From Deltaproteobacteria bacterium (GTDB lineage: Bacteria > Desulfobacterota > Desulfobaccia > Desulfobaccales > Desulfobaccaceae): a stretch of DNA of 34,140 bases. The notes beneath the pieces are model-generated. The model made no database searches. It was given only the letters and a program-made list of their open reading frames with translations, and was not told the DNA's origin. The stretch covers positions 1-34,140 of the forward strand of contig VGSX01000003.1 of assembly GCA_016874895.1 (NCBI GenBank). The letters run 5' to 3'. Below are positions 15,384 through 24,296 of this stretch, piece after piece (positions within the stretch are counted from its first letter, which is position 1; each line of letters begins with the position of its first letter). The position numbers and the translations under genes were made by a program.

Positions 15384-17288
15384 TTAGATTTCCTCCTTGG
15401 GGGGTGGGGGGGAAAGAGCCTCATCCGGGGCGGTCTCCGGCGTCGGGGCCGGGGGGATCACTGCCACGGGCGCGGGCTGGCTGGGTTCCACCACTGGGGC
15501 GGTGTGATTCGGTTCCCCGGGAAGGGTTTGAGGTTCATCCGGAACGGTCTGGCTCTCTTCAAGCGAGGCGGTTTCACGAGCTTCCGCCTGGTCCACTGGC
15601 GCGGCTTCGGCCGTTTCCGGTTGCTGCTCTTCTTCTGCCGGAGCTGACTGCGGTTCTGCTTTACTTTCCATGGCCTTGGCAGGCGCGGCGGCGCGGGTTC
15701 TTTTCCGGGGAGGGGCTGGGGTTTTCTCTGCTTCGGCTTCAACATCCAGGTGGAAGCGCACCGGCCCCCGGTAGTGCAGGAAACACCGGTCCAGGGAACA
15801 TTCCGTATCAGGGAGCGACCAACTGGTGGCAATGGCCACGTGGCCCTTGGGAAAGACGGCTACCTCGGCGTCTACCCAATCAGAAGGGGCCAGAGCGGAC
15901 TCAGCTTCCACCAGGTCATCCTTTTCGGCAATGCAGATGAGCCATTTCAGGCCCTTTTCCTTGACCCGGGTGAAATTCAAGGGCCGGTCGAAAAGGCGGA
16001 CCGGGAGGGTCCCGTCCGGAGCCACCGGGATGGTGTAGGAGTCGAAACTCAACCGGATGATTTCCAAGGGTAGATCGGTCTGGTCATAGAGCAGCCAGTA
16101 GTTGATGGCCGCAGCCGTCTTGTTGATCTTCAGGTTCCGTTCGAACAGCTTCAGGTCCCGGACAAAAGCCACGAGGGGATTATCTTTTTCCATGCTCTTG
16201 AGCTTGTAGACCCAGCTCATGAGTTTGCCGTTCACCACCCGGTTGCCGTTGGGCAAGGTCTTGATGGCGAAGTTGATGTCGTCAAAACGCTTGGGAATCT
16301 GCGCTAAAAAATCCACCAACCCCTTGCTTTTGGTGCCATCCATGGGGGCCACGCTGGAAATCAGGGCATCCACCAGGCCGTCCAATTCCCCGGAAAGGTA
16401 GTTAATGATGGCGGTGAACCCGCCCTGGCAATAACCGCACAGCGTCGCGGGCCGGCCGTGCGCGGCTTTTATCTTCTGGAGGAAAAGCTTGGTGTCCAGA
16501 CAGTCCTCTTCTCCGGTCATGGTCTGCACCGCCGGATGGGCGTAGATATCCTTGACGATGCGGATATACGTGGGTATGCCCTGGTTGGCGAAGCAATGCA
16601 CGAAACTCTTGCCCTCCCCCGGCAGGAAGGCCAGAATGTTGGCTCCCAGCACAAAGGGAGGAATAATCAGGATGGGCTTGCCCTTTTCCCGGACCTGGAC
16701 GGACTTGTCCCAGGGGAGCACCTGGTAAAGGACAAAGCGCTGGGTTTCGGCCACCTGGATATAGTTGCCGTCCTCGAAATGGAACCCGTACTCCGGTTCG
16801 ATGGCCTTAATGGCCTGGGGGTATTCGTGCACCACCAGCTCCAGCAGGCGGGCCTGTTTGGCCATGAAGGCGGCGATGTCCTCACCCTTTTGGTGATACA
16901 GGGTATTGTGCCAGGCCTTATGAAGCTGCTCCAGCTGGTGGGCCTGGAAGTCTGCCAGCGCTTTGAGGCCATGGGTCAGGCCTTTTTCCGCCAGCCGCAG
17001 GTTAAATTCCAACAGACTGGCGTAATCACAGATATTTTCACTATGGGAGTATTGCTTGATTTTATCGTTCTCCACGCTCACGAAGGATTCCAGGGCCGAG
17101 AAGGCCGGGGCCATGAAATCCAGGGCATAACGGCTCAACCCGAGCCAGTAGGTCTGCAGCAGGCGGGCCTGGTCCAGGGCCGCGGAGATAACCTTGGCTT
17201 CCAGGTGCAGGATGTTCTCCGGGGTCATTTCCATGGGGCATGAGGCCGTTTCGCTCACAGGGCGAGTCGCAGCTTTCGACTCAGACAT
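15384..17288 (-). CDS. phaC: Polyhydroxyalkanoate synthase PhaC with extended C-terminal tail
   Basis: GYCQGG lipase-like box, catalytic Asp region AEKDDLV, catalytic His region FPKGHVAI; about 119-aa A/P/E-rich tail. Confidence 0.9.
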   Translation of the reverse strand: MSESKAATRPVSETASCPMEMTPENILHLEAKVISAALDQARLLQTYWLGLSRYALDFMAPAFSALESFVSVENDKIKQYSHSENICDYASLLEFNLRLAEKGLTHGLKALADFQAHQLEQLHKAWHNTLYHQKGEDIAAFMAKQARLLELVVHEYPQAIKAIEPEYGFHFEDGNYIQVAETQRFVLYQVLPWDKSVQVREKGKPILIIPPFVLGANILAFLPGEGKSFVHCFANQGIPTYIRIVKDIYAHPAVQTMTGEEDCLDTKLFLQKIKAAHGRPATLCGYCQGGFTAIINYLSGELDGLVDALISSVAPMDGTKSKGLVDFLAQIPKRFDDINFAIKTLPNGNRVVNGKLMSWVYKLKSMEKDNPLVAFVRDLKLFERNLKINKTAAAINYWLLYDQTDLPLEIIRLSFDSYTIPVAPDGTLPVRLFDRPLNFTRVKEKGLKWLICIAEKDDLVEAESALAPSDWVDAEVAVFPKGHVAIATSWSLPDTECSLDRCFLHYRGPVRFHLDVEAEAEKTPAPPRKRTRAAAPAKAMESKAEPQSAPAEEEQQPETAEAAPVDQAEARETASLEESQTVPDEPQTLPGEPNHTAPVVEPSQPAPVAVIPPAPTPETAPDEALSPPPPKEEI

Positions 17289-18038: not shown

Positions 18039-18067
18039 ACTATAAATGCTGGGAAGCGGCTTGTCAA
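18039..18067 (-). promoter_or_regulatory. Sigma70 promoter for phasin/phaC/phaE/SDR genes
   Basis: Minus strand TTGACA (18062-18067), 17-nt spacer, TATAGT (18039-18044). Confidence 0.75.
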
Positions 18068-18075
18068 GAAAATTT

Positions 18076-18092
18076 TTTGCGCTGCAAAATAT
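18076..18092. promoter_or_regulatory. Candidate PhaR operator, box 1
   Basis: TTTGCGCTGCAAAATAT, containing palindrome TTTTGC-GCT-GCAAAA (18075-18089), 8 nt upstream of the -35. Confidence 0.55.
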
Positions 18093-18183
18093 CCCGCAAC
18101 CACAACCAAGACTATCTTATCGTTTTGATATATAATGAAATAAATTATTCAGAACCAATTATTGACTTACCTATAACATTAAA

Positions 18184-18198
18184 TTTGCGAAATGCAAA
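18184..18198. promoter_or_regulatory. Candidate PhaR operator, box 2 (phaR autoregulation)
   Basis: TTTGC-GAAAT-GCAAA palindrome, 36 nt upstream of the phaR ATG. Confidence 0.5.
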
Positions 18199-18234
18199 AA
18201 GATATTATACAGTATGTCGCCAAAGGAGAGTTTC

Positions 18235-18702
18235 ATGACCGACAAAGTGGTGCTGAAAAAATACGCCAACCGGCGCCTCTATGATACTGAGACGAGATCA
18301 TTTGTGAGCTTGGCCCAAGTGGCTGAACTAGTGAAGCAGGGGCGGGAGCTGGAGATCAGGGATGACAAAACCGGGGAGGACGTCACGGCCTTCATCCTCA
18401 CCCAGATCGTCCTCGAGGAAGCCAAAAAGAAAAGCCTGCTGCTGCCGGTCTCCCTGCTGTATCTGCTCATCCGCTACGGTGACAGCGTCCTGAGCGAGTT
18501 CTTTGACAATTACCTGGAACAGACCCTGAAAACCTATCTGTCCTACAAGAGCGCCATGGATACCCAATTCCGCACCTGGCTGGAAATGGGCCAGAATTTT
18601 ACCGACCTGACCCAGAAGGCCATGGCCGATTTGGCGCCGGCATCGTCGTGGAAAGATTTTTTCCCCCAGAACGACCCCAAAAAGGATGCGGGGCAGGAAT
18701 AG
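18235..18702 (+). CDS. phaR: Polyhydroxyalkanoate synthesis regulator PhaR
   Basis: KKYANRRLYDTETRSFVSLAQVAELVKQGRELEIRDDKTGEDVTAFILTQI, the PHB/PHA accumulation regulator DNA-binding domain. ORF opens at 18214; ATG 18235 has AAAGGAGAG upstream. Confidence 0.92.
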   Translation: MTDKVVLKKYANRRLYDTETRSFVSLAQVAELVKQGRELEIRDDKTGEDVTAFILTQIVLEEAKKKSLLLPVSLLYLLIRYGDSVLSEFFDNYLEQTLKTYLSYKSAMDTQFRTWLEMGQNFTDLTQKAMADLAPASSWKDFFPQNDPKKDAGQE

Positions 18703-18740
18703 TATTGTTTCCGGTTTCCCGTTTCTGGCAAAAAACTTTC

Positions 18741-18887
18741 GTAAGCGTTCAGCGGTCAGCTTACAGCCGTCAGCTAATGCTTTAAATTCAAATAGTTATT
18801 CCAAGATGGCGGATCACTGGTTTTTCGCTTAGTTTCCCTAACCCATTGTTTTTGCTGAAAGCTGATTGCTGATAGCTGAACGCCTAC
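18741..18887. mobile_element. MITE copy A (147 bp, IS66-like ends) with 8-bp target duplication
   Basis: Ends GTAAGCGTTCAGC... and reverse complement GTAGGCGTTCAGC...; flanked by AAACTTTC at 18733-18740 and 18888-18895. Confidence 0.8.
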
Positions 18888-19035
18888 AAACTTTCTATTG
18901 TTTATTAGATAAGGTAGCAGACGGTTGCATTCCAGACGGAACTTGGTTGAAGCGAAGGTTGCCTTTAATGATTTTTTCAAGCATCAAGCTGTCATCTTAT
19001 GCCAGACGCAGAGCAATGCCTCTCAACCAACAGCT

Positions 19036-19062
19036 GGTGGGGCGGGCCTCCGTGCCCGCCCC
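19036..19062. repeat. GC-rich palindromic dispersed repeat (REP-like)
   Basis: GGTGGGGCGGGCCTCCGTGCCCGCCCC. Confidence 0.65.
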
Positions 19063-19091
19063 ATAAATTCTCTCGGGTGTTCATCGGTTTT

Positions 19092-20543
19092 TCAGAACGA
19101 CCCGAACAGGGTGCCTAAAATAATTACCACCACCAGGGAAATAACCGGCGCCACAATCCCCACCATGAAAATGTCGGCATAGGAATCCCGATGCGTCAGG
19201 TTGCAGATGGCCAGCAGGGTAATCACCGCCCCGTTCTGGGGCAGGACGTCGAGACTGCCGGCGGCAATGGCGGTGACCCGGTGCATCAGGTCCAGGGAAA
19301 TGCCGTAGACCGCGGCCATCTCCGCAAAGGTGGCTCCCATGGCTTGCAGGGCGATGCTCATGCCCCCGGAGGCCGAACCCGTGATCCCGGCCAGGATGCT
19401 CACTGACAGGGCCAGGGAAACCAAGGGATTGTCGCCGCCCAGATTAAGCACGCCGGAGCTGATAATTTCAAAGGAGGCCAGGGAGGCGACAACCGCCCCG
19501 AACCCCACCAGACTGGCGGTATTAAAGATCGGCAGGACCGAGGCGTTGGCCCCGGAATCCAAACTCTCGGTAAAATTGGAGTATCGCCGGAAATTGAGCG
19601 CCGTCACCACCAGGATGGAGATGACCAGGGCGGCGATGATGGACCAGATGCCCCCCACCGCTTTAATATTAGTTTCCCCGAATTGGGGCAGGGCCAGAAA
19701 CGAGGTATCCAGGGCTGGAATGATGATTTTGCTGAAGAGGTAGTTCAGGGCGATAACCAGAATAATGGGGAATAGAGCCAAGAAGAAACCCGGCTGGCCC
19801 GCGGGGGTTGGCTTATCACTGAGCTCCATGATGTCAAAACCCTCCCCCTCGGCGCATTCCCGCAACCGCTTGTCCGGTTTGGGCGCCACATCCTCATGCT
19901 CCCCATAGCCTTCTCCTCTGGACACGGCCGTGGACAACCGCCAGTTAAGCCACAGCATGCCCAACGCCAGCATAATCAGGGCGGCAATGATCCCCAGGAA
20001 AGGCGCGGCAAAAGGAGTTGTCCCAAAGAACGGCATGGGAATGGCGTTCTGGATGGCCGGGGTGCCCGGCAGGGCGGTCATGGTGAAGGAAAAGGCCCCC
20101 AGGGCCACCGCGCCCGGGATGAGCCTCTTGGGGAGGCCGTTTTCCCGGAAGAGATTCTCGGCAATCGGGTAAATGGCAAAAGCCACCACGAACAGCGACA
20201 CCCCGCCATAGGTGAGCACCGCACAGGACAGCACCACCACCAGGATAGCCCGCGCATGGCCGAACTTCTTCACGGTCCACTGGGCAATGGCCTGGGCCGA
20301 GCCGCTGTCGTCCATGAGTTTGCCAAAAATCGCTCCCAGCAGGAAAAGCGGAAAATACAGGATGATGAAATTGCCGGTGGCCTGCATGAAGATCTGGGTG
20401 TAGCTCCCCATAATAGGCATATCCCCGGCGGCCAGGGCGGCCAGGGCAGCCATGAGCGGCGCGGCAATGAGCACGCTGACCCCCCGGTAGGCCAGATACA
20501 TCAGCAGCAACAGGGCTATGAGGATCCCTAACATACCTAACAT
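19092..20543 (-). CDS. GntP family permease
   Basis: Multi-spanning hydrophobic protein; GntP-type segments such as LTYGGVSLFVVAFAIYPIAENLF, PGTPAIQNAIP, GITGSASGGMSIAL. Confidence 0.82.
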   Translation of the reverse strand: MLGMLGILIALLLLMYLAYRGVSVLIAAPLMAALAALAAGDMPIMGSYTQIFMQATGNFIILYFPLFLLGAIFGKLMDDSGSAQAIAQWTVKKFGHARAILVVVLSCAVLTYGGVSLFVVAFAIYPIAENLFRENGLPKRLIPGAVALGAFSFTMTALPGTPAIQNAIPMPFFGTTPFAAPFLGIIAALIMLALGMLWLNWRLSTAVSRGEGYGEHEDVAPKPDKRLRECAEGEGFDIMELSDKPTPAGQPGFFLALFPIILVIALNYLFSKIIIPALDTSFLALPQFGETNIKAVGGIWSIIAALVISILVVTALNFRRYSNFTESLDSGANASVLPIFNTASLVGFGAVVASLASFEIISSGVLNLGGDNPLVSLALSVSILAGITGSASGGMSIALQAMGATFAEMAAVYGISLDLMHRVTAIAAGSLDVLPQNGAVITLLAICNLTHRDSYADIFMVGIVAPVISLVVVIILGTLFGSF

Positions 20544-21622
20544 AGATTGCTTTCCTTCCAGGCAAGGTAAACGGCTTCATAGTCCAGGGTGGAGCGCTTG
20601 CCCAGATCGTTATAGTGCCTGTCAAGCCAGTCAGAAGCGGCCCGGTAGCCGACATCGTGCAGATGTATAAAGAAATCCCATTCCGTGTTGAATTTGCTGG
20701 AGACGCTCAAAGATTTGAGTTCGGCATCACCGTCAATGCGGTGAAACAAGGCATCCCGGAAGCGCTGATTTTCCAGGTTCGCCACTTTGATGAGCTCTTT
20801 TAAAATGGCGATGGCCCGGACCTCTTTGATCAGGCTGGCATTAAAGGTGATCTCGTTGATGCGGTTGAAAATGTCCTGGGCCGTGCGGGGAATCTCCTCC
20901 CGGTGGATGGGATTGATCTGCACGATGACGATGTCCCGGGACTGGCAATTATCCACCAGCGGAAAGAGGGCCGGATTGCCCATGTAGCCGCCGTCCCAGT
21001 AGGCCTCCCCATCTATCTCCACGGCCTGATAGATATAAGGCAGGCAGCAGGAGGCCATCACCATGTCCGCAGTCATCTCCTCCCGGCGGAAGATCTTCTG
21101 CATGCCGGTGCGCACGTTGGTGGCCACCACGAAAAGTTTGATGCCCTCGGCATGCCTGACATGTTCGAAATCTATCAGGGAGGTAATGAGATCGCGCAAC
21201 GGGTTGAGATCAAAGGGATTCATCTGGTAAGGCGATACCATGCGGACAAGGGCATCAAAAAAAATATAGCCGGGCGAGAAGTCCAAGGTCCAGCGGCCCA
21301 GCAACCGGTCCAGCCAGGTCCGCTTGAAGGGCGAGAATTGCCCGGCCTGGTGCACTCCGTACCAAAACTTCCGCAGCGCTTCCCGGGCGCCCTCTTTGCC
21401 GCCGGTGTCCAGGCCATCCGCCACCACCACGGCGTTCATGGCCCCGGCGCTGGTGCCGCTGATGCCCTCAATGGCAATCCGGTCATCTTCTAAAAGGCGG
21501 TCCAAAACACCCCAGGTGAAGGCGCCGTGCGCCCCGCCGCCCTGGAGGGCCAGTTCGATCATTTTCGGTTGTGCCAATGCTCTACCTCCATTGTTCAGGT
21601 CAATCTTTCCCTGAGAGGCCAC
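20537..21622 (-). CDS. Patatin-like phospholipase family protein
   Basis: LQGGGAHGAFTWGVLDRLL, GTSAGAMNA (GxSxG), WDGGYMGNPALFPL; start region overlaps none, 3' end overlaps the GntP start by 7 nt. Confidence 0.88.
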   Translation of the reverse strand: MASQGKIDLNNGGRALAQPKMIELALQGGGAHGAFTWGVLDRLLEDDRIAIEGISGTSAGAMNAVVVADGLDTGGKEGAREALRKFWYGVHQAGQFSPFKRTWLDRLLGRWTLDFSPGYIFFDALVRMVSPYQMNPFDLNPLRDLITSLIDFEHVRHAEGIKLFVVATNVRTGMQKIFRREEMTADMVMASCCLPYIYQAVEIDGEAYWDGGYMGNPALFPLVDNCQSRDIVIVQINPIHREEIPRTAQDIFNRINEITFNASLIKEVRAIAILKELIKVANLENQRFRDALFHRIDGDAELKSLSVSSKFNTEWDFFIHLHDVGYRAASDWLDRHYNDLGKRSTLDYEAVYLAWKESNLC

Positions 21623-21689
21623 AGAAAGACCGCTGCGTGCTTTTTTTACTGCAGAATATTTTGCGAAGCGTCAACGATAAGTATCCCTA

Positions 21690-21718
21690 AATATAATGGC
21701 AGAGCCTTAGGTTGTCAA
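21690..21718 (-). promoter_or_regulatory. Sigma70 promoter for patatin/GntP genes
   Basis: Minus strand TTGACA (21713-21718), 17-nt spacer, TATATT (21690-21695). Confidence 0.7.
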
Positions 21719-21725
21719 TAAGTAT

Positions 21726-21742
21726 TATGCAATGCAAAATAT
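21726..21742. promoter_or_regulatory. Candidate PhaR operator, box 3
   Basis: TATGCAATGCAAAATAT, 14/17 identical to box 1 and 7 nt upstream of the -35. Confidence 0.5.
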
Positions 21743-21844: not shown

Positions 21845-21884
21845 AAAGACCAGAAACGGCCCTGAAGCGATGCTTCAGGGCCGT
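21845..21884 (-). terminator. Rho-independent terminator after the GNAT gene
   Basis: Perfect 13-bp stem ACGGCCCTGAAGC-GAT-GCTTCAGGGCCGT (21856-21884); minus strand continues TTTCTGGTCTTTT. Confidence 0.75.
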
Positions 21885-21914
21885 CCTGGTCAGGTCGGGT
21901 GGATGTTTATTGTG

Positions 21915-22478
21915 TTATTCCTGCAGATACTTGACCATCAGGACCAGATCGGATTCCGCGCCCTCCAGGTCTCTCACGAAACCCTGCAGGTTGGCCACTT
22001 CCTTGAATCCCATCTTCTCAAAAAGGTAAAACGCTTTATCGAGACGAGGCGGGATCTCGATGTGGATCTGCTCCAGGCCCAGGCGGGTGGCGATATCGAT
22101 GAGGTTATGGAGCAGGGTGGTCCCCAGGCCCCGCACCCGGAACTGGGTGGAGGTGGTCAGACGCAATTCCGCCTGATGCCTGGTCCAGCCGATGGGATTG
22201 AAGTGCAGGGTGGCATCTCCCACAATCTGCCCGTTATGCAGGGCAACGAGAGGGAGAATAGTGTCATAATTTAAATCGTAGATCCAATTCTCTATGACCT
22301 TGGGGTTGGTGACGTCTTCCTTGAGACAGAGCCGGTCCTCTGGCGGTAAATTCTTGAAATACTCCACCAGGCCGGCCTCATCCGACTTCAACAGGGGCCG
22401 CAAGGTGACGGGCGTGCCGTCGTCCAAGGAGATGTTTTTGGGATAGGTGTTAATGAGTATCTCTGACAGCTTGTCCAT
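21915..22478 (-). CDS. GNAT family N-acetyltransferase
   Basis: GNAT acetyl-CoA loop region FRVRGLGTTLLHNLIDIA; paralog of 23742-24296. Confidence 0.8.
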   Translation of the reverse strand: MDKLSEILINTYPKNISLDDGTPVTLRPLLKSDEAGLVEYFKNLPPEDRLCLKEDVTNPKVIENWIYDLNYDTILPLVALHNGQIVGDATLHFNPIGWTRHQAELRLTTSTQFRVRGLGTTLLHNLIDIATRLGLEQIHIEIPPRLDKAFYLFEKMGFKEVANLQGFVRDLEGAESDLVLMVKYLQE

Positions 22479-22526
22479 AATTATCTCCCCCTCAGCTTAT
22501 CCGGCGGGCGGTTCGGAAGCCTGACA

Positions 22527-23720
22527 TTAGAAATACCACCCGCGCTCCACGATCACCGCATAGCCCATGCCGCCGCCGACGCACAGACTGGCCAGCCCCA
22601 CCTCGACGTTGCGTTTTTGCATCTCATGGACCAGGGTTACCAGAATTCTGGCGCCGCTGCAGCCGATGGGGTGACCCAGGGCGATGGCGCCGCCGTTGAC
22701 ATTGACGATTTCCGGGGGAAGTTTAAGTTCCTTGAGGCAGGCCAGGGACTGGGCCGCAAAGGCTTCATTGAGTTCCACCAGTTCGATTTTCTTGCCCCTC
22801 TCCAGGCTGACCTTTTCGATGGCATGGCGCACCGCGTAAATGGGGCCGGTACCCATGAGCTCGGGTTCGCAGCCGGCGCAGGCGTAACTGTCGATCTTGG
22901 CCAGGGGGCGGATGCCCATTTTCAGGGCTTTCTCCGCGGTCATGAGCAGGAGTGCCGCCGCCCCGTCATTAATTCCGGAGGAGTTCCCGGCGGTAATGGT
23001 GCCCTGCTTGGCAAAAGCGGGTTTGAGTTTACTTAATTTTTCCGCCGTAGTGCCGAAGCGGGGGAATTCATCGGTGTCGAAGATGATGGGATCGCCCTTG
23101 CGCTGGGGGATTTCCACCGGCACGATCTCATCCTGGAACCGGCCGGACTTAATAGCCGCCTCGGCCTTCTGCTGGCTCTGGGCCGCGAACTCGTCCTGCT
23201 CCTCCCGGCTGAGGTGAAACCGTTCGGCAATGTTCTCCGCCGTGATGCCCATGTGGGTATCCCCGAAGGAACACCAGAGCCCGTCGTGAATCATGGTGTC
23301 CAAGACCTGCACGTGCCCCATGCGGGCCCCCCACCTGGCCTGGGGCAGCACAAAAGGGGCTGCGCTCATGCACTCCATGCCTCCGGCGATGACAATCTCC
23401 GCGGCCCCCACCTGGATCTTCTGGGTGGCGGTGATCACGGCCTCCATCCCGGAGCCGCACACGGCGTTGACGGTCATGGCCGGCGTGTATTGCGAAATAT
23501 CCGCCAGCAGGGCTGCCTGCCGGGCGGGGTTCTGACCTTCACCCGCCTGGAGCACATTCCCCATAATAACCAGGTCCACATTGTCATGCCTGACTTTGGC
23601 CCGGCGTAAAACTTCCTTTATAACAATGCCGCCCAGTTCCACGGCGGGTGTTTCCCGCAGGGCGCCCCCGAAGGTGCCGATGGCGGTCCTGGCGGCGCTG
23701 GCAATCACGATGTCCTGCAT
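22527..23720 (-). CDS. phaA: Acetyl-CoA C-acetyltransferase (thiolase)
   Basis: [11 protein letters not shown] active-site Cys, [33 protein letters not shown]. Confidence 0.93.
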
Positions 23721-23741
23721 AAGTCTCCTCCCTCCCCCGCA

Positions 23742-24296
23742 TTAAGAAGTCGCGGGTTGCAGTTCCTTAACCAGAAGGGCGATATCGGCATACTGCTGGT
23801 TTTGGAGATCCTTGACATAGTTTTTCAGCACCGTCAATTGGCTGAATCCGGCCCTCTTAAAAGCAGTAATAACTCCCTCCCGGTTGGTGACAATCCTGGC
23901 CAGGAGTTTCTTGACGTTGTGTTTGGCGGCCAAGGTGGTGAGTTCCTCGATGAGGGCCGCCCCCAGCCGGCGGCCCTGAAACTCCGGGGCCACCGTGACC
24001 CGGATCTCGGCCACATGACGCCCCCAGCCGAAGGTCTGGTAGTGTAAAGTAGCATTTGCCACGATATTATCCTGATATTCCGCCAAAATGGGCAACACCT
24101 TATCATAATTGAGATTGCGGGCCCACTTCTCTATGAGCTTCCGGTCGGTTACCACGTTGCGCAGGAAACGCCGATCCTCTTCCCCCAGATCGACGAAAAA
24201 ACTGTACAGGGCATACTGGTCATCACGCGTCATCGGTCTCAGGGTTACGCTGAGACCGTCTGGAAGAGTTATCTTCTTGGGATAATCTTCAAACAT
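23742..24296 (-). CDS. GNAT family N-acetyltransferase
   Basis: EFQGRRLGAALIEELTTLA; homologous along its length to 21915-22478. Confidence 0.8.
   Translation of the reverse strand: MFEDYPKKITLPDGLSVTLRPMTRDDQYALYSFFVDLGEEDRRFLRNVVTDRKLIEKWARNLNYDKVLPILAEYQDNIVANATLHYQTFGWGRHVAEIRVTVAPEFQGRRLGAALIEELTTLAAKHNVKKLLARIVTNREGVITAFKRAGFSQLTVLKNYVKDLQNQQYADIALLVKELQPATS

Follow-up and report, generated by a model that had tools for sequence, protein, structure and literature searches.

Two palindromes of the same type lie upstream of two transcription units in a Desulfobacterota PHA locus, a phasin-phaC operon and a patatin-gntP gene pair, and the gene for PhaR lies between them. We consider it highly probable that both are PhaR operators and that both units are under PhaR control, as a first-pass annotation of this DNA had proposed. 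The window, meaning the whole stretch of DNA that was analysed (34,140 nucleotides), is an entire 34-kb contig of a draft genome of 3.75 Mb that is 98.9% complete (Table 1). For comparison, phaR loci of Desulfobacterota relatives were gathered; the named genomes among those detected by PhaR similarity belong to this phylum.

Table 1 Features of the PHA locus in the window.
Feature	Position	Strand	Remarks
phaC-like PHA synthase	15384..17288	-	weak TIGR01836 match
phaP2, second phasin-like protein, 96 aa	17414..17704	-	no Pfam match
phaP1, phasin-like, 85 aa	17740..17997	-	no Pfam match; named by position and likeness to the second copy
Phasin/phaC operon promoter, TTGACA-N17-TATAGT	18039..18067	-	promoter scan; relatives keep the spacing between TGTCAA (-35) and box
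Box 1, candidate PhaR operator, TTTGC-GCT-GCAAA, TTTGCGCTGCAAAATAT	18076..18092	-	AT-rich arms; directly 5' of the phasin-operon -35
Box 2, TTTGC-N5-GCAAA	18184..18198	+	overlaps the apparent phaR -35
phaR, 155 aa	18235..18702	+	PF07879 PHB_acc_N
GntP/CitMHS-type transporter	19092..20543	-	overlaps the patatin end; Pfam matches both slightly under their cut-offs
Patatin-like esterase (PF01734)	20537..21577	-	probable start TTG 21577 behind GGAGGT, not GTG 21622
patatin-gntP promoter, TTGACA-N17-TATATT	21690..21718	-	promoter scan
Box 3, candidate PhaR operator, TATGC-AAT-GCAAA, TATGCAATGCAAAATAT	21726..21742	-	5' of the patatin -35
Strong intrinsic terminator, 15-pair stem	21854..21886	-	separates the GNAT/thiolase genes from the patatin promoter

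The product of phaR matches PF07879 with 88 bits, far above the cut-off, scores slightly below the cut-off of the PHA_reg_PhaR equivalog model TIGR01848 (99.6 against 109.45 bits), and is encoded in a PHA context. At 21915-24296 the thiolase gene phaA stands between two GNAT acetyltransferase genes, a block which is kept beside phaR in several relatives with 64-85% identity. Between phaR and gntP there is an imperfect inverted repeat (18738-18890) with 40-nt arms that are 75% complementary.

Boxes 1 and 3 each contain the palindrome TGCRNYGCA exactly, and at each of them all eight flanking bases are A or T. The first-pass annotation had placed the two boxes at these positions with 14 of 17 bases identical, each 7-8 nt from a minus-strand TTGACA-N17-TATA(G/T)T promoter. 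Coordinates and identity were exact when re-checked, and a promoter scan found both promoters: the -35 lies 8 nt from the end of box 1 and 7 nt from the end of box 3, and the gap between TGTCAA and TGC is 10 and 9 nt, respectively. Both promoters score 11/12 and are the top two of the nine detected between 17200 and 22600, where 3.7 were expected. Within the patatin leader, 21662-21670 (TGCGAAGCG) has AATATTTTGC in common with box 3 and was considered as a fourth box, but it was discarded on its matrix score of 1.4; searches of the leaders for an RNA element returned no Rfam match.

The claim that PhaR proteins bind TGC...GCA type sites agrees with published work, as the Ralstonia and Sinorhizobium consensuses both fit boxes 1 and 3. 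PhaR sites of Ralstonia eutropha have the form YTKNTGCRNYGCANMAR; at phaP1, BS1 lies directly upstream of the -35 and BS2 at the transcription start site (PMC12849132). The Sinorhizobium meliloti PhaR consensus is WNWD2NYGCRNYGCRNH2WNW, with AT-rich arms, and the regulon of this PhaR (AniA) includes phasins, phaZ, the SMa1961 depolymerase and mmgR; phasin and depolymerase promoters are bound, and phaR itself has weak sites only (PMC12542648). When scored with a 21-column Desulfobacterota matrix, five sites that S. meliloti carries in promoters described as efficiently bound reach 14.6-18.0, and boxes 1 and 3 reach 26.5 and 23.9. The window thus shares with R. eutropha H16 the TGCRNYGCA core, the T/A-leaning arms and the adjoining phasin -35, but it belongs to another phylum, lacks a convincing second box at the start site and has patatin-gntP as a predicted target. 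Its likeness to the S. meliloti regulon extends to a near-identical motif with AT-rich arms, to weak sites at phaR itself and, by prediction, to phasin and depolymerase genes as direct targets; the depolymerases of S. meliloti, however, are annotated PHB depolymerases, whereas here there is a patatin-type candidate with a GntP-type carrier. From their sequence, boxes 1 and 3 are very likely PhaR binding sites.

A motif scan of the regions upstream of relatives' phasin and phaR genes indicates that the box 1 type is conserved across the phylum. TGCRNYGCA precedes phaR or a phasin gene in about 40 of 52 Desulfobacterota phaR loci, the window among them. In these loci TGC-RNY-GCA has 46 copies in the 21.7 kb that precede phaR and phasin genes, compared with 37 in the other 577 kb, and the runner-up among the 64 palindromes of the form XYZ-RNY-zyx has 13 upstream copies. 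The placement is also maintained: in 37 relatives' sites the distance from the phasin -35 (TGTCAA) to the core, read from phaR, is 9-12 nt. In G023 the box is retained with one mismatch in the core.

The specificity of the sites was assessed by pattern searches and by searches with sequence models. The exact 17-mer of box 1 occurs once in the genome, and the loose consensus WWTGCRNYGCAWW gives 10 sites in 3.75 Mb, boxes 1 and 3 included; the other eight are mostly within ORFs, and none of them coincides with a recognised PHA gene. The first-pass annotation had regarded random occurrence throughout the genome as an outcome that would speak against its proposal, but the full architecture, TGTCAA-N9..12-TGCRNYGCA, matches boxes 1 and 3 alone, with no match for the reversed pattern used as a control. 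Matches to it were detected in 42/43 genomes with PhaR and in 4/23 without. Model R1, which was built from the boxes of 32 relatives with the window excluded, scores box 1 at 16.8 bits, box 3 at 15.8 bits and the third-ranked place in this genome at 11.8 bits; it matches 17/18 genomes with PhaR and 0/10 relatives without. Because the architecture is confined to boxes 1 and 3 in this genome, and because R1 ranks both of them first and finds nothing in the PhaR-less relatives, it is very probable that box 3 is a genuine PhaR operator, which makes patatin-gntP a predicted PhaR-controlled unit in this genome.

In relatives, matches unlinked to phaR precede phasins or phaC in G184, G208 (two), G130 and G381, with a further phasin in G184; some of the other unlinked matches fall inside ORFs and look like chance. 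Contig C81 of the window's own genome carries a sequence resembling box 1 (L068 1176-1188, TTTGCGCTGCATA) in a short ORF near an apparent CRISPR array, and this too is probably due to chance.

The terminator upstream of the patatin promoter separates the GNAT/thiolase genes from it and thereby marks patatin-gntP as a unit of its own. The patatin start given in Table 1 is the probable one, judging from the ribosome-binding site and the starts of homologs. In relatives (L054, L055, L056 and L057), phaR and the GNAT gene that adjoins phaA are convergent and separated by about 50-115 bp. The window has patatin and gntP between these two genes, along with box 3 and a separate promoter for the pair. 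In this lineage the pair appears to have entered the locus between phaR and the thiolase block, with a PhaR box of its own. No convincing direct repeats were found bounding a patatin-gntP cassette. We also considered an assembly chimera that put the pair into the PHA locus, and set it aside, as it leaves the PhaR box before the pair unexplained.

The extension of the PhaR regulon to patatin-GntP, predicted here from box 3, is not conserved among relatives. G002, of the same genus, has an orthologous pair (75% and 68% identical) on another contig without a full box, its patatin gene being preceded by a partial TGCATTGCC only. Among the nine other Desulfobacterota genomes which carry this patatin, seven have no box within 400 bp upstream of it, so the gene pair is not conserved together with the box; in G093 the upstream region scores a weak 1.2. 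We infer that the box in front of patatin-gntP was acquired in this lineage, and the arrangement resembles a recruitment of the two genes into the regulon that is specific to it. In G180 a patatin-gntP pair on contig C20 (L240 4442-5545) has a PhaR-like site, TGCACCGCA (11.9), shortly before the patatin start. This contig is GC-rich and may be foreign; its site suggests that PhaR may control patatin-gntP in other genomes as well.

The missing boxes in those seven genomes are what one would expect if box 1 were a true PhaR operator and box 3 a chance look-alike in an AT-rich promoter, with patatin-gntP outside PhaR control. We regard this as unlikely. With a symmetric matrix, for which the window's scores were held out and the relatives' were not, box 3 reaches 26.9 and box 1 26.6, close to the relatives' median of 27.6, and nothing else in the stretches of this genome that were scored exceeds 11.5. 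Given how rare the geometry of box and -35 is, with two occurrences in 3.75 Mb here and four matches in all across the 23 PhaR-less genomes, the probability that chance would put a copy within 4 kb of phaR is of the order of 1e-4. More improbable still is that the palindrome serves a different transcription factor whose gene lies near the PHA locus: TGC/GCA palindromes are simple, but the sites track phaR, as the R1 counts in genomes with and without it illustrate, and their consensus equals that of experimentally studied PhaR sites.

By analogy with other bacteria, PhaR would occupy the TGC-N3-GCA palindrome in the absence of PHA and, from this position immediately 5' of the -35, would repress the neighbouring sigma-70-type promoter; nascent PHA granules would then titrate PhaR away and release the promoter. 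Through box 1 it would control the phasin-phaC operon, which is the standard arrangement, and through box 3 patatin-gntP, most likely a PHA-mobilising unit in which the patatin-type esterase would act on PHA or its oligomers and the carrier would move a short hydroxy-acid. We infer PhaR binding and repression here, and likewise the direction in which the genes moved and what the enzymes do. PhaR could instead bind both boxes as an activator, from a class I/II-like position near -50. The box centres do lie near -50, a position that would also suit an activator, and Ralstonia PhaR, which represses phaP1, activates phaP3 (PMC12849132). Both promoters, however, match at 11/12 with a 17-nt spacing and should need no activator, and the Ralstonia site that adjoins a -35, phaP1 BS1, is that of the repressed promoter (PMC12849132). 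Activation is therefore improbable, if a little less so than a chance origin of box 3. Repression relieved by granule titration of PhaR, by analogy with the model for Ralstonia phaP1, is favoured because the promoters are near consensus and the site abuts the -35.

Box 2 had been described as a third palindrome in the phaR leader or promoter. It is present there, but it is a site of another type: its N5 spacing puts it outside the PhaR-box definition, and it is specific to one order. TTGC-N5-GCAA occurs in exactly four of the loci, those of the window, G002, G023 and G026, all of this order, and in all four genomes it sits 68-72 nt before the phaR KKYANRR codons. In some other families an N3 box is found 59-62 nt before these codons. 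The apparent phaR promoter consists of TTGCGA (18185-18190) and TACAGT (18208-18213) with N17 between them, and box 2 appears to overlap a -35 (TTGCNN) with TANANT 17 nt further on in all four genomes. It is probably a phaR-proximal autoregulatory element, putatively a diverged form.

In a survey of 395 genomes of the phylum, this patatin was detected in 10, all of which are among the 46 with PhaR, and the transporter in 6, all PhaR-bearing. The hypergeometric probability of the co-occurrence of patatin and PhaR is 2e-10 by genome and 3e-6 by genus, values that are uncorrected for shared ancestry. The patatin translation displays GTSAG, a GxSxG serine motif, and DGG. No match to the PF06850 depolymerase family was found in this genome. 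The idea of a complementary distribution of patatin and PF06850 depolymerases was dropped, as most other patatin genomes carry both; among those others, only G000 and G002 lack a PF06850 match. A patatin-like, granule-associated PHA depolymerase, PhaZh1, is described for Haloferax mediterranei (Liu et al. 2015, cited in PMC4823750). It is likewise a patatin-type protein tied to PHA; unlike the patatin here it is archaeal, and it is likened by its description in the citing paper rather than by sequence. Since patatin is found only in PhaR-bearing genomes, PF06850 has no match here and a patatin-like PHA depolymerase is described in Haloferax, PHA mobilisation is the likely candidate function. 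The substrates of patatin and transporter are guesses, with matches that reach broad families only.

The kind of system is already known; what is new here is the phylum-wide architecture and the recruitment of patatin-gntP. The PhaR operator, so far studied in alpha- and betaproteobacteria, is extended to Desulfobacterota, and its sharply defined arrangement of box, 9-12 nt and TTGACA offers a means of locating PHA genes in genomes. Within a limited collection of papers, we found none on PhaR regulons in Desulfobacterota and none on GntP-family hydroxybutyrate carriers beside PHA genes. Confined to PhaR-bearing genomes, the patatin-GntP pair is a candidate for the missing depolymerase and its product carrier. 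Tentatively, and with the balance somewhat against it, the pair may represent an undescribed Desulfobacterota PHA-mobilisation module, with an intracellular depolymerase and a hydroxybutyrate carrier, that was recently captured by the PhaR regulon with a box placed as at the phasin promoter.

The window has another patatin-family gene (PF01734; 12498-13793, plus strand), which adjoins the PHA operon and has no PhaR box nearby. In G155 a PHB_depo_C-family gene is preceded at 90 nt by a PhaR box (L139 7681-7705), which makes it a second boxed candidate mobilisation gene, and in G208 a strong PhaR box (L251 1499-1523) lies about 170 nt upstream of the gene for a 442-aa protein, a possible further PhaR target.
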